Translations under genes and position numbers: made by a program
In this document: one piece after another, positions 40,724-49,621 of the stretch
Position numbering within the stretch: the first letter of the stretch is position 1
How the letters are laid out: the number at the start of each line of letters is the position of its first letter
The notes under the pieces: model-generated
The model's input: the letters and a program-made list of their open reading frames with translations, nothing else
The model's database searches: none
What the model was told of the DNA's origin: nothing
Assembly (NCBI RefSeq): GCF_001422665.1
Contig: NZ_LMLU01000001.1
Coordinates: 540,797-604,796 of the forward strand
DNA: 64,000 nucleotides
DNA from: Arthrobacter sp. Leaf234
GTDB lineage: Bacteria > Actinomycetota > Actinomycetes > Actinomycetales > Micrococcaceae
Direction of reading: 5' to 3'

Positions 40724-41182
40724 TCAGCCGCGCGTCGGCTGGTAACGGGGCCGGTCGAAGGGATCGAGATCGACGGTGAGGCTCATGGTGTGGGGAACAG
40801 GGTCGGCGCACAGCAGGTCGTGCATCACGGCCAGCCACTGGAACGCGGCCGCCCTGTCCTCGAAGTACTCGGCAGGGTAGGCGGCGTGCGCGTACCCGGC
40901 GGCCGTCATGCGGTCCACGGGCGTGCTGCCGAGCATCGACGCGGCCAGGACGTGCCGTGCGGAAGCAAGGACGCGGCGGGCCCCGGGGAGGATCTCGACG
41001 ACGTCGTTTAGGTCGACGAACACCACGTACGGTCGGTGGTCGGTGAGCTCGAATCCCCGGCGCAGCATCATGAGCGCATCGACCTCCGTCACGGAGACCG
41101 GTTCCCGGGCGCGGACGGTCACCGCGCACCGCTCCAACCGGCTGATCTCGTACGTGGTCTCGAAGGTGTAGGCGGGTCTCAT
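40724..41182 (-). CDS. STAS/SpoIIAA-like protein, paralogue B
   Basis: 152 residues. A beta-strand N-terminus (YTFETTYEISRLERCAVTV) leads into a STAS-like domain: PYVVFVDLNDVVEILPGARR, LGSTPVDRMTAAGY, YFEDRAAAFQWLAVM. The order of these blocks matches the protein at 34095-34541, so the two are paralogues. The ATG at 41182 follows GCCGGAG. The C-terminal ~40 residues (VMHDLLCADPVPHTMSLTVDL) are not shared. Function is unknown. Confidence 0.72.
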   Translation of the reverse strand: MRPAYTFETTYEISRLERCAVTVRAREPVSVTEVDALMMLRRGFELTDHRPYVVFVDLNDVVEILPGARRVLASARHVLAASMLGSTPVDRMTAAGYAHAAYPAEYFEDRAAAFQWLAVMHDLLCADPVPHTMSLTVDLDPFDRPRYQPTRG

Positions 41183-41546
41183 GCATCTCCGGCAGCAGTG
41201 ATGGGCGGGACGCCGTGGCGCGGACCCGGCGCGAACGCCGTGAGACCAGCCGAACCGAGGCACGTCTCCACAGGATAGGCCGTTCGGCCCACCAGCGCAC
41301 AGCGCCGTGCGGCCGGGGGACGTCGGCCGTAGGACCCGGTGCCGGGCGCGCGGTCGTGGGCGCCGTGCGGGTTCTCGGGGCGGTCCTCCGGGTGGACCAC
41401 GGTGGGTTCGCCGCCCCCCAGACGGCGCAGGGCGGAGGGGCGGAGGGACCGCGGTGCGCGCGGTGCCGCCGGACGCGTGGTCACGGTTCGGCGCTGATGC
41501 GGGGCGGGCCATGGCCGGGAGGGTGCGGGCCGTCGATCATGGGTGC
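41183..41546. other. Intergenic stretch without a supported gene
   Basis: About 360 bases between divergent genes. Frames are open in several phases because the DNA is very GC-rich, but no ribosome-binding site, known protein sequence or strong hairpin is seen. Confidence 0.5.
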
Positions 41547-42581: not shown

Positions 42582-42998
42582 ATGCAAGGACACCACACGC
42601 GTCTCGCTATGCAGCACGCGGGCCTCTCCCTCGCGACGGTCTGGGAGCATTTCCTCAACATGGGCGGATGCATCGACCATCTCGAGGTGGACGGCTATCT
42701 CCACGGCGTGATCACCCTGCCCGCCGACGACGGCGACTGCGTAACCCAGGCCGTCAACGAATTGCTCGACGACCAGGCGCGTGTGGGCCTGCTGTCCTGC
42801 TGCCGCGCCCCGTACAGCCGGGCGGGAGCGAGCGGACCAGCCGGACCGCGCACGCTGTTCCGGGCCTGCCCGGCCGCCGGACCGCATCCGGCCGCGGACG
42901 GGATGGCGGAGGCCGCGCCCACCGGGGCTGCAGCGCGTCGAGCGCCACGGCCATCTTCGCTGCAACCCGTCCGTCGAGCCGTGCGCCGGGAACGGTGA
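42582..42998 (+). CDS. Small stand-alone copy of the domain found before GAF (see 44080 and 48809)
   Basis: 138 residues as read. The first ~70 (MQHAGLSLATVWEHFLNMGG, EVDGYLHGVITLPADDGD, AVNELLDDQ) align block by block with the N-termini of the two GAF proteins at 44080 and 48809. The last ~65 residues are Arg/Ala/Pro-rich and look like random GC-rich reading, so the native stop may have been lost or moved by a frameshift after RAPYS. The ATG has GGAGGA ten bases upstream. Function is unknown; a small dimerisation or ligand module is possible. Confidence 0.6.
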   Translation: MQGHHTRLAMQHAGLSLATVWEHFLNMGGCIDHLEVDGYLHGVITLPADDGDCVTQAVNELLDDQARVGLLSCCRAPYSRAGASGPAGPRTLFRACPAAGPHPAADGMAEAAPTGAAARRAPRPSSLQPVRRAVRRER

Positions 42999-43135
42999 CC
43001 GGGTACCTGTCCCGCAGGGACTGACCTCGCTCGGAGACCAGGACCGTCTGTCCTGCCTCGCCGACGAGTCGCGGCCGCGCCCTGATGGAGAAGTGGGCCG
43101 CGAGGCGTGACTCGTCCCCGTGGGGGAGGCACGGC

Positions 43136-43822
43136 TCACTCGTTCGGACGAGTCTCCAGAACCGAACGCATCTTCCGGAGGCCGTCCCGGATGCGTGTCT
43201 TCGCCGTCGGGACGGGGATGCCGAGGCGTACAGCGACCTCAGCGTAGGTGAGGTGCGAGAAGTAGGCCAGGGTGATGGCCTCGCGCTGCACTGCGGACAG
43301 GACGGCCATCCCGGCGTGCACGCGCGACGCCTCGTCCCGCCCGACGACGGCCTCCGACACCTCGTCGAAGGCGCTCGACTGGTTCCGGCGTCCCCACTTC
43401 TCGTCCCGCGCGCCCCGGGAGACCTCCGAGCGCAGGCGGTCGATCGCGCGGCGGTGCGTCAGGGTCTTCAGCCACGTCAGCGGGTGGCCGAGCTCGGGCC
43501 GGTAGCGATCGCCCTGCTCCCAGACGAGCAGGAAGACCTCCTGCGTGACCTCCGCGCTGATGTCCGGGTCGAGGAGGATCCGGCGGGCCTGCCCGAAGAC
43601 CCGGCGCGAGCACGCGGTGTACAGGTCGCGGAAAGCCGCCTCGTCCTTCGATCCGGCGGACGTCAGCAACTCCACGAGGTCGGGCCCGGGTGGGTCCTGC
43701 CCGTCGTCGTCGGATGGGGCGGGATGGACCCGGGGAGCGGCGGTCGCGGGGGGAGGGGAGGCGACCGCCTGGGGGAAGGAGGCGATGGTGGAGCTTTCTG
43801 GCTGAGACCGGGGCAGAACCAT
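43136..43822 (-). CDS. ECF sigma factor (SigK-like)
   Basis: About 228 residues from the ATG at 43822; a GTG at 43891 is open but lies inside a hairpin at the expected transcription start. Region 2 is in FRDLYTACSRRVFGQARRIL and EVTQEVFLLVWEQGDRYRPELG. Region 4 is in LSAVQREAITLAYFSHLTYAEVAVRLG. The N-terminal 55 residues are Pro/Ser-rich. SigK-type factors are usually controlled by a membrane anti-sigma (RskA) encoded next door; none is present here. Confidence 0.88.
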   Translation of the reverse strand: MVLPRSQPESSTIASFPQAVASPPPATAAPRVHPAPSDDDGQDPPGPDLVELLTSAGSKDEAAFRDLYTACSRRVFGQARRILLDPDISAEVTQEVFLLVWEQGDRYRPELGHPLTWLKTLTHRRAIDRLRSEVSRGARDEKWGRRNQSSAFDEVSEAVVGRDEASRVHAGMAVLSAVQREAITLAYFSHLTYAEVAVRLGIPVPTAKTRIRDGLRKMRSVLETRPNE

Positions 43823-43885
43823 CCCCACCGCGGGTGCGGGAATCGTCGGGGCGGCGTGCCACCAGCGGCAGTCCGGCCCTCCTGA

Positions 43886-43918
43886 GGACACAGGGCGCGG
43901 CCCTGTGTCCTGAATCTA
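43886..43918 (-). promoter_or_regulatory. Promoter -10 and start-site hairpin of the ECF sigma gene
   Basis: On the minus strand TAGATT (43918-43913) is a fair -10 element. Directly downstream, GGACACAGGG pairs perfectly over 10 bp (43886-43895 with 43901-43910, loop 5 bases), so the mRNA would begin with a stable hairpin. This may protect the message or act as an operator. Confidence 0.4.
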
Positions 43919-44079
43919 ACCCGTACCACCCCTCCGGTCCAGCCTCCCGCGGCATCGCCGGTCCGGACGGCGGACGGATGCGCAGGGGATTGCGGCCCTG
44001 GGGTCTAATGGATGGAGCCCGAGGGGTCTCCCGATCGTGCGGGAACCACGGGAACGACGACGACAGGACGGCAGGGCGG

Positions 44080-44853
44080 ATGACCGACGGACGGCCCCAG
44101 CGGGCGCTCATGATCGCCGCCGTCGGCAGTGCGGGCCTGGCTCCGGAGGATGTGTGGCGGACGGGTCTGCTGCTCGGAGGGACCCTGTCCCTGCCGGACG
44201 TCAGGGAGTACCTCCGCCAGCGCCTCGATCTCCGGGCCCCCGAGAGTGACGTCCTCGCCGCAGCCGTGAACATCCTGCTGCGCGGGGCAGGGATGGAAGT
44301 GGCGATACCTCCCATGGCCGAGGACGCACCGGAGGGACCGGGCGGCATCGGCGACCTCGGTGCGGATGCGGCCTTCCTGCTCACCGACGAGGAGCAGGAG
44401 CAGGAGCGGCTGGAGGCGGTCCGCCGGACGAGCCTGCTGGACACGGAGCCGGAGGAACGCTTCGACGCCATCACCCGGAGGGCGCAGGAGCGCTTCAGGA
44501 GCAGTTCGGTGATCGTGACGCTCCTCGACGAGCACCGGCAGTTCCTGAAGTCCGCGATCGGGCCCGTCGAGCAGAACATGCCCCGGACACGGTCCTTCTG
44601 CGACACCACCATCCGCGAGTCCGTCCCCGTGATCGTGGAGGACGCCTTCGACGATCCCCGCTTCCGGTGGAACCCCCTCGTGCTCGGCGATCCCTTCATC
44701 AGGTTCTACGCGGGGCACCCGCTCAGGAGTCCCGACGGATGGGCGGTCGGGACCCTCTGCGTGATCGACCAGGAGCCACGCATCTTCGATGCCGAAGACG
44801 AGGCGGACTTCCACGCCATGGCCCTCGAGGTGCAGGCCCAGCTGAACGCGTGA
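44080..44853 (+). CDS. GAF domain protein with the shared N-terminal domain (copy 1)
   Basis: 257 residues from the ATG at 44080. Residues ~10-65 (SAGLAPEDVWRTGLLLGGTLSLPDVREYLRQRL, LAAAVNILLRGAG) belong to the small domain also seen at 42582 and 48809. An acidic linker follows. A GAF domain spans about 115-250, with ERFDAITRRAQERF, SVIVTLLDEHRQFLKSAIG, TRSFCDTTIRE and FYAGHPLRSPDGWAVGTLCVID. The GAF part closely resembles that at 48809 and probably binds a small ligand or senses redox state. No output domain is attached, so it may act through partners such as the nearby sigma factor. Confidence 0.82.
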   Translation: MTDGRPQRALMIAAVGSAGLAPEDVWRTGLLLGGTLSLPDVREYLRQRLDLRAPESDVLAAAVNILLRGAGMEVAIPPMAEDAPEGPGGIGDLGADAAFLLTDEEQEQERLEAVRRTSLLDTEPEERFDAITRRAQERFRSSSVIVTLLDEHRQFLKSAIGPVEQNMPRTRSFCDTTIRESVPVIVEDAFDDPRFRWNPLVLGDPFIRFYAGHPLRSPDGWAVGTLCVIDQEPRIFDAEDEADFHAMALEVQAQLNA

Positions 44854-44987
44854 CACCGGGCGTGCCGGAGCCTCGGCCGCCCCGCGTGCTACCCGTCCCT
44901 GCCCTGGCTCCGCCCCGTCTCCGTCCCCTCAGCGCGCCTCCGGATGCGCTCGCGGTACTCCGGGCTGGACACGGCATGGTGAACTAG

Positions 44988-44999
44988 TAAGTGGGCTTA
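44988..44999. promoter_or_regulatory. Isolated TAAG-N4-CTTA palindrome in a convergent gap
   Basis: TAAGTGGGCTTA, extended by one more base pair on each side (GTAAG...CTTAC), lies between two convergent genes. This is an unusual place for an operator. It has the same form as the sites near marR and catalase. Confidence 0.35.
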
Positions 45000-45055
45000 C
45001 TGGTTGGTCAAGGAGCGGCTGACACAGCAAACCCCCTGATGGTGCCCGCGCCCGG

Positions 45056-45934
45056 CTACGGCTGCTCGGGCACCATCTTGCTGTGCGCAGCACTGGGAGC
45101 GGACCCCGACCTGCCGTACTCACGGCGCACGCGGGGTGCCTGGCCGATGGCGACGAGGGCTCCGACGTCGTCGTCCCTCCGCGTCCACGCGCGCAAACCC
45201 CCGGCCGCGAGGAGGTCGAGACAGGCCGCTTCCTGGTCCTCGCCGATCTCCACGAGCAGATGGCCCCCGGGCGCCAGCCACTCCCGGGCCTCCTGCACCA
45301 CGCGCCGCTGGACCTCCAGGCCGTCGGCGCCGCCGTCGAGGGTGGCCCGCGGCTCGTGGAGCCTGGCTTCCGGCGGCAGGTTCCCCACCTGGGCGCTCGG
45401 CACGTACGGGGTGTTGCAGAGCAGGGTGTCGACGGTGCCGCGGAGCGCAGCGGGCAGCGGCGCGAAGAGATCGCCCTCGTAGCAGCGGGCGCCGTGTCGG
45501 CTGAGGTTCCGGTGCGCGAGCGCGACGGCGGCGCCGGAGATGTCGGTCGCGTGGAGGCGGAGACCCGGGACCAGGTGTGCGAGGCCCGCAGCGAGCGCTC
45601 CGCACCCGCAGCAGAGATCCAGCACCGTGGCACCCGGCGCCGTAACGTCGGCCGCGGCCGTGACCAGGAGGGCGGACCGCTGCCGCGGCACGAAGACACC
45701 TGGTCCGACGAGGAGTCGGAGTCCGCAGAAGTCCACCCAGCCGAGGATGTGCTCGAGCGGCAGGCCCACCACCCGCTGCTCCAGCATCTCCAGCAGGCGT
45801 TCGTCGCCGGCCCCGCTCGCCGCGAGGAGTCGCGCCTCGTCCTCGGCGAAGACGCATCCGGCGGCGCGCAGTCGTGCGGTCATCGAGGCCTCGGTGGGCC
45901 GGGCGGAGTCGACGGGGTGCTGACGGTGCGGCAT
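45056..45934 (-). CDS. Putative protein N5-glutamine methyltransferase (PrmC/HemK-like)
   Basis: 292 residues. A helical N-terminal domain precedes EHILGWVDFCGLRLLVGPGVFVPRQRS, the usual HemK linker. The SAM-binding site is VLDLCCGCGALAAGL, and the catalytic motif appears as NTPYVP where PrmC has NPPY. True PrmC modifies the GGQ glutamine of release factors; the Thr for Pro change fits the separate subgroup annotated 'putative protein N(5)-glutamine methyltransferase', whose target is not established. It stands alone on the minus strand; its 3' end lies within an 11-bp hairpin. Confidence 0.87.
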   Translation of the reverse strand: MPHRQHPVDSARPTEASMTARLRAAGCVFAEDEARLLAASGAGDERLLEMLEQRVVGLPLEHILGWVDFCGLRLLVGPGVFVPRQRSALLVTAAADVTAPGATVLDLCCGCGALAAGLAHLVPGLRLHATDISGAAVALAHRNLSRHGARCYEGDLFAPLPAALRGTVDTLLCNTPYVPSAQVGNLPPEARLHEPRATLDGGADGLEVQRRVVQEAREWLAPGGHLLVEIGEDQEAACLDLLAAGGLRAWTRRDDDVGALVAIGQAPRVRREYGRSGSAPSAAHSKMVPEQP

Positions 45935-45983
45935 GGGACGGCCCTTCGGCGGGGGAGGCCTGGCACCACGAGGATAGCGGTGA

Positions 45984-46646
45984 TCAGGTGTCGGTGGATC
46001 CGTGCGCCATGGCCACCGGCTTCGATTCCACGCTCCCCCGCTCCCGGAGATAGACCGAGGCGCCGATCATCAGCGCGATCACCATGAATTCGCTCTGCCA
46101 GTTCTGGAAGGACTCGAACCAGAACCGGGACGTGCCCAGGTACTCCAGGACCGTGGCACCCGGGAGGCCGTGAGCCGCCTGCTCCTCGCTGTAGGCTGCA
46201 CTGCCACCCACCGCATGCAGGAGGAAGGACGCGGCGAAGAGGACGAAGAACATGATCGACAGCGAATGTTCGTACAGTCGCAGGATCACGCCCCCGCGGC
46301 GCACCGGCCACGGAGCGTCGCTGGTGCCGGACGCGTCGCGGGGATCGTCGTCCTGCGGTTCGTGCCGGCCGGGCAGCTTCGATTCCGAGGATCCCCGCTG
46401 GAACAGGTACGCCGTCAGCACCACGTACATGCCCATCTGGAGGAACTCGGATTCCCAGTTCTCGAACGTCGCCTCGACGAACTCGCCGGTTCCGAGGAAG
46501 CCGAGGACACCCACCGTCGTTCCCCCGTGGGCTTGCTGGTCCGCGTTGTAGCTCAATGCTCCGCTCAGCACCATGCCGGCGAAGGAGATGACGAAGAGGG
46601 CCCCGTTCACGAGCAGCAAGCCGTGGTCCCGGATCCAGTGCCTCAT
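45984..46646 (-). CDS. DUF6766-like membrane protein with internal duplication
   Basis: 220 residues with four predicted helices arranged as two similar halves. Each half runs: membrane helix, a loop with (D/E)(Q)xAHG...LGT, then FENWESEF or FQNWQSEF and a second helix ending before RGSxESK. This is a clear tandem duplication within the gene. The family is widespread in soil bacteria without known function. The promoter region contains a direct repeat of GATCGATCCG near 46665-46683. Confidence 0.75.
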   Translation of the reverse strand: MRHWIRDHGLLLVNGALFVISFAGMVLSGALSYNADQQAHGGTTVGVLGFLGTGEFVEATFENWESEFLQMGMYVVLTAYLFQRGSSESKLPGRHEPQDDDPRDASGTSDAPWPVRRGGVILRLYEHSLSIMFFVLFAASFLLHAVGGSAAYSEEQAAHGLPGATVLEYLGTSRFWFESFQNWQSEFMVIALMIGASVYLRERGSVESKPVAMAHGSTDT

Positions 46647-46825
46647 GTGCCTCCACCTTCCTGTATCGATCCGGATCGATCCGGCCGGATGTCCCCTCCT
46701 ACGCTAGGAACCGGCGGCGGGAGCCCGCAACGGTGACGAAGCACGCGCAACGGGTTGCGCGTCGGCGGCGTCCATGTCCAGCGGGCCGCGGCGGCGGGCA
46801 CGCGGCTCCGGGATAGCCTGAGGGG

Positions 46826-47629
46826 ATGCAACGCGTGGCGGTGATCTCGGACCTGCACGGCAACGCCACCGCCTTCGAGGCGGTCCTGGCGGATCTCCGA
46901 CGCCGGGGGGTCTCCACGATCCTCAACCTGGGCGACGTCGCCGGCAAGGGCCCACGCGGGTCGGAGTGCGTCCGGCTCAGCCGCCTGCACTGCGCCGTGA
47001 CGGTGCGCGGCAACTGGGACGACTTCCTGCCGAACGAGACGCCCGAGCGGCGCGACGATGCCGGCTGGTGGTGGCACAGCGAGCTCAGCCCGGAGGACCG
47101 CGAGTGGCTGCGGTCCCTCCCGCTCTCGCACGACATCACCCTCAGCGGCCGCCGCATCCGGCTGTTCCATGCGTCCGCGAGGAGCGTGTACCACCGGGTG
47201 CACGCGCAGCACACGGACGAGGAGTTCGCGGGCATGTTCGCGGCGACGGAGCTCACGGGTGACGGGCCGCTGCCCGACGTCGTCTGTTACGGAGACATCC
47301 ACGACGCCTTCATCTCCACCCATCGCAGCAGGACGCTCGTCAACGTGGGCAGTGTGGGTAACCCGCTCGACGAGACGCAGGCGTCCTACGTGATCCTCGA
47401 GGGTGAGCCCGACGGCGACCGCTCGGCCCCGTTCGGCATCCAGTTCGTGCGGGTCGCGTTCGACATCGACGCGGAGATCGCCCTCGCCACCGCGCTGGGG
47501 ATGCCCGCGCTCGAGGCATACGCGATCGAATTGCGGACGGCGATCTACCGCGGACACCACGAGGCGGCGGGCCTGCTCGGGCAGGACGACGGCCAAGCGT
47601 CGGTCAGGAGCCGGCTGCTTGACCCCTGA
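46826..47629 (+). CDS. Metallophosphatase family protein
   Basis: 267 residues. Metal-binding motifs are VISDLHGNATAFEAVL (D-x-H), LNLGDVAGKGP (GD) and VRGNWDD (GN), with later VCYGDIHDAF and NVGSVGNPLDE. This is the YfcE-like calcineurin phosphoesterase pattern. The substrate is unknown; diadenosine polyphosphates, phosphodiesters and small phosphomonoesters are known for relatives. The ATG lies six bases after TAGCCT, so it may be leaderless. Confidence 0.9.
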   Translation: MQRVAVISDLHGNATAFEAVLADLRRRGVSTILNLGDVAGKGPRGSECVRLSRLHCAVTVRGNWDDFLPNETPERRDDAGWWWHSELSPEDREWLRSLPLSHDITLSGRRIRLFHASARSVYHRVHAQHTDEEFAGMFAATELTGDGPLPDVVCYGDIHDAFISTHRSRTLVNVGSVGNPLDETQASYVILEGEPDGDRSAPFGIQFVRVAFDIDAEIALATALGMPALEAYAIELRTAIYRGHHEAAGLLGQDDGQASVRSRLLDP

Positions 47630-48053
47630 CCGACACCCCATGCCCGTGCAAGCACATCGATGTATTCATCGTCGGTCCGCGGACAGGTCCGGGCCGTCGT
47701 TGCGTGTCCTCAGTGTGCGCGCGGCTGCTCAAGGTGCGCAGTGACGCCGGTCAAGATCCGCTCAGCTTGACAGGACGACGTGGCAGGACGACACCGCGGG
47801 TCGGTAGGTCACGGCGTGGTGAGGCCGAAGGGACGGCCTGCGGCCGGTGGTCCCCTAGACCCGCTCCGCGAACCGCGGAGATTCTCCCATCGAACGAGCG
47901 TGGCCGCCCGGACGATCACCGTCGGCGGACGTCTCCACCCGGCGGCAGAATTGGGTAATATCTCCTAGGTCGTTTAGCAGCAGGCGGCTCCTCACCTTCT
48001 CCTTGCCCAGCATCTCGCGTGGTCGGCCAGGGGCGGATGCAAAGGTTCATCTG
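47630..48053. other. Long gap before the GAF-ANTAR gene, with an AT-rich promoter-like patch
   Basis: About 420 bases. No gene is supported. A short direct repeat (CAGGACGAC) lies near 47770-47785. TAATAT at 47956-47961 in GGGTAATATCTCC is the only good -10-like sequence; the -35 is not clear. It lies about 90 bases before the likely GAF-ANTAR start. Confidence 0.4.
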
Positions 48054-48791
48054 TTGTCCGAACATCCTTTTGACAAGGGCCCGGCTGTCTCGGGCCTCCT
48101 CCAGGACCTCGTCCTCGACAGCGACGACGTCGAGGAGTTCCTGACGAAGCTGGTCACCATCGCCGGGCACAGCCTGTCGCACGAGGATGACGAGGTGCTG
48201 TGCGGCGTGACGCTGCTGAGGGCCCGCACGAAGACGACCGTCGCGAGCAACAGTCCCGAAGCGCAGAAGATGGACGAGGTGCAGTACGAGTTCAACGACG
48301 GCCCATGCCTGAGGGCCGCCCGCCTGGGAGTCGCCCACTATGTCAGCGACTTCGATGCGGAGGAGCGTTTCCACGAGTACAGCCGGGCGATCGCGGGACA
48401 CGGCATCAAGTCCGCGCTGGGTGTGCCCATCCGCCTCGAAGGCGACGCGACGGCTGCACTCAACTTCTATTCACCCCTCGTGGACGCGTTCAGCCCCGAG
48501 GCGGTCGAGGCGGCGGAGGGATTCGCCGCGGAGGTCTCGGCCTCGCTCCGCCTCGCCGTCCGGATCGCGAAGCTCACGGAGTCGAGTGCCGACATGCGGG
48601 CTGCGATGGAGAGCCGCACCACGATCGACCTCGCGGTCGGGGTGATCATGGGGCAGAACCGGTGCTCCCAGGATGCAGCCATGGCCATCCTCAAGACGGC
48701 CTCCAGCACCCGCAACGTGAAGCTGCGGGAGGTCGCCGCGTCTGTGCTGCAGTCGCTGGGCCAGGGTCCGGCCAGCACGCACTTCGAGTAG
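48054..48791 (+). CDS. GAF and ANTAR domain protein
   Basis: 245 residues from the TTG at 48054; a TTG at 48003 is an alternative, and the true start is unsure. The GAF domain covers about residues 20-160 (VLCGVTLLRARTKTTVASNSP, FNDGPCLRAARLG, SALGVPIRLEGDATAALNFYS). The ANTAR RNA-binding domain is C-terminal (MRAAMESRTTIDLAVGVIMGQNRCSQDAAMAILKTAS). ANTAR proteins bind paired hairpins in mRNA to prevent termination; the GAF domain would provide the signal. The shared-domain GAF protein starts 18 bases downstream. Confidence 0.88.
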   Translation: MSEHPFDKGPAVSGLLQDLVLDSDDVEEFLTKLVTIAGHSLSHEDDEVLCGVTLLRARTKTTVASNSPEAQKMDEVQYEFNDGPCLRAARLGVAHYVSDFDAEERFHEYSRAIAGHGIKSALGVPIRLEGDATAALNFYSPLVDAFSPEAVEAAEGFAAEVSASLRLAVRIAKLTESSADMRAAMESRTTIDLAVGVIMGQNRCSQDAAMAILKTASSTRNVKLREVAASVLQSLGQGPASTHFE

Positions 48792-48808
48792 CAACACCTC
48801 CGGCGATC

Positions 48809-49621
48809 ATGGAGCACTCGAACCAGCACGGCCGGCACCGGCACCTGGCAGAGGGGATGCGGCGGTCCGGGTTGTCCGTCACCCAGGCCTGGATCGGCTA
48901 CTTCGCGCAGGGCGGCACCCTGTCGGAGGCCCGGGTGGCTGCCTATCTCGAGGGGCTCGGCGGTCTGCCCGCGGTCGATTCCGATCTCCTCGCTGAGGTC
49001 GTGCAGGAAGCGGCGGGGGAGAGGATGCCGGCTGGGGGCGCGGTCGTCGTCAGTCGTCCGGGCGGGAGCCCGCACGATCCGCAGGAGGGCCTGCGGCCGC
49101 TGGGCGCCGCAGGGGCAGCGCTGCTCGACGAGGCGTCCGCCGAGCGCGAGCGCCTGCATTCCCTCGATCAGTTGAACCTCCTGGACACGCCCCCGGAGGA
49201 GCGGTTCGACAGGATCACCCGGCGGGCGGCCGAGCGATTCCGATGCGAACTGGCGACGCTCGCCCTGATCGCCGAGCACCGGCAGTTCATCAAGTCCGCC
49301 GTGGGCGACGCCGACCAGGATCTCGAGCGGACGCAGGCTTTCTGCAACGAGACCATCCGCGCGGCGAGTCCCCTCGTCCTGACGGACACGCTGCAGGACG
49401 AACGCTTCCGCGGGCACACCTTCGTGTCCGGTGCACCGTACATCCGCTTCTACGCCGGGTGTCCGCTGCGCGGGCCGGGCGGATGGCTGGTCGGGTCGCT
49501 CTGCGTGATGTCCACCTCGCCACGCGCGTTCAGCGACGAGGACCTCGAGGACCTCGAGGAACTGGCGCAGGACATGCAGCGGGAGGTGTACCCGGGCTGG
49601 AAGGCCTGGCGCCTGCTCTGA
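48809..49621 (+). CDS. GAF domain protein with the shared N-terminal domain (copy 2)
   Basis: 270 residues. Residues ~12-75 (MRRSGLSVTQAWIGYFAQGGTLSEARVAAYLEGLGGLPAVDSDLL) repeat the domain seen at 42582 and 44080. A Gly/Pro-rich linker follows. The GAF domain (about 125-260) contains ERFDRITRRAAERF, EHRQFIKSAVGDADQDLERTQAFCNETIRA and FYAGCPLRGPGGWLVGSLCV. It is very close to the GAF of 44080, with an extra cysteine (AGCPL). The start is 18 bases after the GAF-ANTAR gene, so these two sensors are probably co-expressed. Confidence 0.82.
   Translation: MEHSNQHGRHRHLAEGMRRSGLSVTQAWIGYFAQGGTLSEARVAAYLEGLGGLPAVDSDLLAEVVQEAAGERMPAGGAVVVSRPGGSPHDPQEGLRPLGAAGAALLDEASAERERLHSLDQLNLLDTPPEERFDRITRRAAERFRCELATLALIAEHRQFIKSAVGDADQDLERTQAFCNETIRAASPLVLTDTLQDERFRGHTFVSGAPYIRFYAGCPLRGPGGWLVGSLCVMSTSPRAFSDEDLEDLEELAQDMQREVYPGWKAWRLL

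Follow-up and report, generated by a model that had tools for sequence, protein, structure and literature searches.

SD domain proteins at the locus

Arthrobacter sp. Leaf234 carries three proteins that share a domain of ~66 residues with four predicted helices, here referred to as SD, within a 64,000-nucleotide stretch of its genome (assembly GCF_001422665.1, contig NZ_LMLU01000001.1, forward-strand positions 540,797 to 604,796). This whole stretch is called the window, and coordinates below follow its own numbering. SD is a family matching no sequence family tested, and the position of its genes favours GAF-ANTAR proteins as its partner. The first window protein, standalone and 138 residues long, is encoded by an ATG open frame at 42582–42998 on the forward strand; its domain spans ~42582–42779 and is followed by a CCRAPYS tail. 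The other two are forward-strand SD-GAF fusions, one of 257 residues at 44080–44853 (SD ~44086–44292, GAF ~44449–44832) and one of 270 residues at 48809–49621 (SD ~48821–49027, GAF ~49193–49573). Both GAF parts belong to PF01590, at 51.9 and 54.1 bits respectively against a cut-off of 22.4. No other Pfam domain was matched in these two proteins. An earlier note on this DNA had already recognized GAF without an output domain in both, but its description of the GAF domains as almost identical was overstated, the two proteins being just 44% identical over 225 aligned positions (BLASTP). It had also placed one SD protein beside a GAF-ANTAR protein, as is the case: a GAF-ANTAR gene at 48054–48791 (forward strand; TTG start unsure; ANTAR domain at 48591–48749) precedes the third SD gene, whose ATG lies 17 bases past its stop. 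The GAF-ANTAR frame at 48003–48791 scored 58.2 bits against PF03861 and 44.3 bits against PF13185. An ECF sigma factor gene (PF04542 and PF08281) lies at 43136–43822 on the reverse strand, divergent from the SD-GAF gene at 44080.

A profile built from the three window copies recovered 16 more open frames in the same genome at E 8e-6 or better, and the whole-genome count by profile is 19; tblastn with the third window domain found 20 places in its own genome at E ≤10. Conversely, a profile of the 16 copies outside the window recovered all three window domains, at E 5e-22 (42582), 1e-10 (44080) and 3e-15 (48809), whereas none of 20,000 shuffled domain sequences did better than E 0.019. The ordered segment proposed for these proteins is thus real, and it proved to be neither a well-known family nor a chance-level similarity. 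With 19 copies genome-wide, the family is not local, as had been supposed. In the 24 orthologue pairs listed from a codon comparison, the proportion of nonsynonymous differences (pN, 0.007–0.18) was found to be lower than that of synonymous differences (pS, 0.17–0.59), indicative of purifying selection.

Searches of family databases did not place SD. None of the three window proteins matched in NCBIfam, their SD segments had no match in Pfam, and all 19 members together gave four chance-level Pfam rows alone, with no helix-turn-helix family among them. The PDB sequence search returned one row (E 0.22), the PHROG matches of the SD-GAF proteins covered the GAF part only, and the PADLOC anti-phage models matched 0 families for four window proteins at E up to 0.01. 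An identity of SD with the ANTAR domain was rejected, no PF03861 match being present in the 19 members at E up to 10, and descent from ANTAR is unsupported (profile–profile probability 0.4%).

The anatomy of the domain was derived from 89 copies in four genomes, G000 (the window's own), G397, G399 and G403. Judged by length, 61 are standalone and 28 are fused to GAF, with SD before GAF. For 88 of these domains the consensus reads EEQRRLTLQAVRAAGLSLEEVWLRYFSLGGNLDEFEVDAYLAGLLDLPALERDLLAQAVNELLDD, and a proline-rich RAPYS tail often comes after it. Position G30 never varies, and Q3, Y25, Y40, L47 and A58 are each conserved at ≥90%. An AP(Y/F/H) tail was observed in 31 of 60 standalone copies versus 2 of 27 GAF-fused copies. 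The same 88 domains have a mean net charge of −7.1, with 85 of them negative, and the third helix is acidic.

Coupling of SD genes to GAF-ANTAR genes

ANTAR proteins have been described as RNA-binding antiterminators controlled by a fused sensor, a kinase or a partner. The ANTAR sets of the genus are large, with up to 42 matches in one genome. The four genomes contain 125 ANTAR matches, and 50 of the 89 SD copies have at least one of them no more than 2 kb away. Two of these genomes are single contigs, in which 10 of 20 and 9 of 16 SD copies have an ANTAR within 1.5 kb; circular shifts, near-zero shifts included, gave means of 0.43 and 0.33, with 8 and 2 shifts per 10,000 equalling or exceeding what was observed. 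The commonest arrangements are a standalone SD gene downstream of a co-oriented ANTAR gene (16 cases at 120 bp or less) and an SD-GAF gene convergent with an ANTAR gene (9). Among 24 same-strand downstream pairs, 14 have an overlap of 1 or 4 nt between the stop codon of the GAF-ANTAR gene and the start codon of SD. Beyond the chromosomes of the genus, 29 loci were chosen by SD score and not by ANTAR: 25 from other genera, three from Nesterenkonia or Kocuria, and one Arthrobacter plasmid. In 26 of them an ANTAR ends directly upstream of SD on the same strand; two of these genomes belong to other families. Copy numbers of SD and ANTAR also rise together over 38 genomes (Spearman 0.87; 0.84 at fixed genome size). 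The distances among 17 coupled ANTARs and among their SDs were found to correlate (r 0.88; 0 of 5000 shuffles as high), which shows that the two are inherited together, as a linked cassette would be, rather than that they touch. The suggestion in the earlier note of a signalling family whose small domain contacts a partner agrees with these data, and gene order in these loci and overlapping pairs points to GAF-ANTAR, one of the candidates of that note, as the partner; the contact itself is presumed.

All 17 coupled ANTARs belong to PF03861 (38.7–54.5 bits, cut-off 27.3). Their median score is 47.9 bits versus 59.2 bits for 103 others, medians taken from 120 of the 125 scores, the five lowest (truncated matches at 35.2 to 23.6 bits, all among the others) being left out. 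Positions of EutV were placed by the spacing of R142, K149, Y164 and R168, as given in the consulted part of the EutV study (PMC8934654). In the genus, none of the 15 ANTARs coupled to standalone SD has a basic residue at the position of R177, compared with 49 of 57 others; at the other loci, 1 of 28 coupled ANTARs has one, compared with 15 of 16 others. The corresponding counts for an aromatic residue at Y164 are 0 of 15 versus 29 of 57 and 2 of 28 versus 7 of 16. The 57 others come from 74 ANTARs used, since 43 of the 125 lie outside the compared loci and another 8, which are short frames, were excluded. The EutV RNA-contact residues Y164 and R177 are thus generally missing from ANTARs coupled to standalone SD, while R142 is retained in 43 of 43. 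Both ANTARs coupled to SD-GAF, including that of the window at 48054, keep Asn and Lys at the positions of R175 and R177. In EutV, RNA binding fell 55-fold with Y164A and was lost in the triple mutant N173A/R175A/R177A, with R177 alone not being reported in the part of that study available here (PMC8934654).

A quick tree of 114 GAF-ANTARs, built without two long-branch rows and segments shorter than 180 residues, placed 39 of 41 coupled members together with 7 uncoupled ones in a single group (Shimodaira–Hasegawa-like approximate likelihood ratio test 98, with long-branch warnings). Because the coupled ANTARs are essentially one clade, the residue loss appears to represent one or few ancient events. 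Another ANTAR, one with the basic residue, is held by 14 of 26 coupled loci, a lower bound for loci with 1.5 kb flanks.

Two coupled loci show irregular features. At L014 (G000:C7:23171-23758), the GAF-ANTAR frame before the coupled SD is broken by an in-frame TAG, and the SD copy itself is nearly unchanged from A. agilis (pN 0.007). At L106 (G397:C1:260537 region), the N-terminal extension of the coupled SD holds a short tandem DNA repeat with units ggtcatcaccct, located between the ANTAR stop and the domain.

A candidate sensory switch and its alternatives

A stoichiometric partnership of SD with GAF-ANTAR is the most economical reading, because of the gene order, overlapping codons and co-inheritance. 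More specifically, SD is proposed to be the dedicated partner of a GAF-ANTAR variant without canonical RNA binding, the pair forming a sensory switch on a neighbouring regulator; this reading is given a probability of about 0.5. The four-helix, acidic SD would serve GAF-ANTAR proteins as a protein-interaction partner and form a complex with them. A GAF-ANTAR gene followed by a standalone SD gene, the commonest order outside the genus, would allow both proteins to be made together. The ANTAR domain, having lost the residues that grip hexaloop RNA, would most likely be a dimeric docking platform for SD, a docking or dimerising role being suggested by the decay of its RNA-contact residues. The GAF domain may sense a small ligand and set whether SD is held or released, and SD would then act, with either sign, on a neighbouring GAF-ANTAR antiterminator competent in RNA binding. 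In the SD-GAF fusions the sensor would sit in the same chain as SD, and some fusions may act on an ECF sigma factor. These targets are suggested because competent ANTARs adjoin the pair and SD-GAF genes adjoin competent ANTARs or an ECF gene. A broader and more tentative picture is that an ANTAR domain gave up RNA binding to become a platform for protein docking, with the portable regulator SD as its cargo. In many-copy genomes, GAF-ANTAR variants, SD and SD-GAF proteins might then trade partners and so switch genuine ANTAR antiterminators as well as some of the ECF sigma factors.

Several observations weigh against this partnership. No ANTAR lies within 2 kb of 39 of the 89 SD copies, which must act in trans or have another role, and the orphan SD group L091–L099 is uncoupled in 9 of 9 loci, one with an ANTAR 2.4 kb off. 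The partial correlation of SD and ANTAR counts is 0.11 at fixed GAF_2 count; counts cannot separate ANTAR from GAF, because GAF-ANTARs carry both, and it is gene position that speaks for ANTAR. Uncoupled ANTARs also deviate from EutV (Y164 aromatic in 29 of 57, K149 Lys in 21 of 57, E160 Glu in 2 of 57), so only the R175/R177 region splits the groups sharply, and with the decay essentially confined to one clade the Fisher values on these residues are not independent evidence. L024, a locus from a distant family, has a coupled ANTAR in which the basic residue is retained, suggesting that coupling preceded the loss. In the genus, another ANTAR lies within 1.5 kb of just 4 of 15 coupled ANTARs. 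The coupled ANTARs are not basic (mean charge −1.1), leaving a simple charge pairing between SD and ANTAR unsupported. A scan for the dual-hexaloop motif, of low power as perfect loops were demanded with no positive control, found it in 0 of 65 stretches upstream of uncoupled SD genes (shuffles average 0.54). It was likewise found in 0 of 82 stretches placed at fixed distance upstream of GAF-ANTAR genes (shuffles average 0.72). The predicted structure of SD, taken up below, resembles DNA-binding XRE domains.

Part of the same evidence would fit another scheme, in which SD, as inhibitor or co-activator, itself controls whether the coupled GAF-ANTAR binds a non-canonical RNA, with no separate target. 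Overlapping genes and co-inheritance are consistent with it, and NasS–NasT, the system that appears closest in action, offers a precedent in which a partner holds the ANTAR protein (PMC3795266, as far as the text seen goes). Both systems would pair an ANTAR protein with a regulatory partner, the SD gene being adjacent to that of its ANTAR and often overlapping it. The nitrate/nitrite sensor NasS, as described in the same portion of that work (PMC3795266), releases the RNA-binding NasT, whereas SD is a 66-residue helical domain without a known family, GAF would be the sensor, and the ANTAR lacks RNA-contact residues. That loss, complete for basic R177 in the genus and frequent for aromatic Y164, and the empty, low-power hexaloop scan near these genes make direct gating somewhat unlikely. 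RNA mimicry by SD is weakened too, the coupled ANTARs being neither basic nor residue-complete, and the many copies without a coupled gene speak against SD as part of a toxin–antitoxin system.

The predicted fold raises the question of whether SD could instead be a DNA-binding repressor of diverged XRE type that is co-expressed with GAF-ANTAR and regulated through it. An AlphaFold2 model of the first 81 residues of the 42582 protein, based on 16 sequences, has a predicted local distance difference test (pLDDT) score of 83 and places helices at 2–13, 17–26, 33–40 and 48–67. The structural neighbours listed for it are mostly XRE or POU helix-turn-helix domains, with a best Z of 8.0, and the SD part of a second model (mean pLDDT 59, GAF part not used) gave Z 8.9 to an XRE protein. 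The helix arrangement is thus predicted to be similar to that of XRE and lambda-repressor-like proteins, but Z values of ~8 are common among small helical models, the best Foldseek E was 0.25, and comparison with the HTH_3 domains of the same genome gave a profile probability of 2.8%. SD also differs from these proteins in its strong acidity. DNA binding is unlikely, because of the mean net charge of about −7, and the repressor reading is correspondingly improbable. The lack of a clear fold match does not imply a new fold; the reading favoured here is a domain for protein interaction, whose fold may be repressor-like.

A third alternative starts from the ECF genes: SD could be anti-sigma-like, in which case SD-GAF would hold the ECF sigma factor encoded next to it, and shared regulons would account for the link to ANTAR. 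ECF genes homologous to that of the window recur near other SD genes, lying within 1.25 kb (start to start) of 5 of the 28 SD-GAF genes, the window pair 43136–43822/44080 included, where ~0.3 would be expected (56 sigma matches in the four genomes). An ECF homologue is also held by loci L066, L067, L069, L072 and L074. Anti-sigma domains are likewise encoded beside ECF genes, but 23 of the 28 SD-GAF genes have no such neighbour, standalone SDs show just one homologous ECF gene at 1.6 kb and one fragment, and no anti-sigma family was matched in the Pfam searches. An anti-sigma role for SD therefore has poor odds. The ECF sigma factor had also been named as a candidate partner in the earlier note; the recurrence agrees with this, although the link is weaker than that to ANTAR, and the window's ECF factor is possibly a second kind of SD partner.

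Compared with one-component GAF-ANTAR proteins (PF03861 with GAF), the coupled upstream protein has the same architecture, and the SD-coupled lineage differs in its lower PF03861 score and the loss of basic R177. Abundant ANTAR RNAs were reported earlier for some actinobacteria, Arthrobacter among the genera listed, at nearly 10 or up to 36 per genome (PMC8164766, part consulted), so ANTAR richness is the known part. In the accessible portions of papers on ANTAR with GAF, Arthrobacter, hexaloop antitermination or a downstream small protein, an SD-like partner and a decayed ANTAR lineage were not found; within the papers searched, these are the new parts. The proposed partnership of SD with GAF-ANTAR would give a role to part of the large Arthrobacter ANTAR sets, link a family of proteins so far annotated as hypothetical to a partner, and provide compact gene pairs for testing how ANTAR activity is gated. 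Here, one ANTAR lineage seems to have lost the established mode of RNA binding and is instead produced alongside a small protein not described before.

Distribution and mobile copies

Of 38 genomes in the genus, 35 carry SD, and copy numbers range from 0 to 34. In a family sample it is present in at least 56 of 245 genomes (13 of 32 genera), with copy numbers reaching at least 11 outside the genus, and in a phylum sample in at least 4 of 396 genomes, the window's own included; these are lower bounds, as the first 24 or 15 candidates per genome, respectively, were scored. Carriers include Arthrobacter bussei (97% identical to the query copy), A. cheniae, A. ruber, A. agilis and two Arthrobacter sp., and, outside Arthrobacter, Nesterenkonia and Kocuria rosea. 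The orphan copies of L091–L099 are highly conserved, with 80–97% identity among Arthrobacter. One of these loci, L099 (WNZI01000004.1), is titled Vibrio cholerae strain 35D and carries an Arthrobacter-like SD locus at 83% identity; it is probably a mislabelled or contaminated assembly.

A phage origin of SD is unsupported, since viral contigs (three single-protein queries) and phage records (one query) yielded no SD relatives. Among 72,556 plasmid records, SD was observed in 7 (Arthrobacter 4, Kocuria 2, Nocardia 1), where it is labelled a hypothetical or a GAF domain-containing protein or lacks any annotation. Plasmid1 of Arthrobacter sp. MN05-02 (L103) and pAAG24-152 (L104) are mobilizable and carry SD-GAF convergent with GAF-ANTAR; one of them also holds a coupled ANTAR–SD pair. 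In G403, five near-identical short SD copies (L125, L129, L138, L139 and L147) are convergent with ANTAR matches at 74–133 bp, two of which are truncated or stop-bearing. This looks like a recent duplication or a mobile cassette.

Two further results concern the window itself. A scan of the window against Rfam at gathering scores gave no RNA family match. A DUF7793 protein (PF25056, E 3.6e-07 on 40724–41512) is encoded at 40724–41182 on the reverse strand, near the first SD gene.

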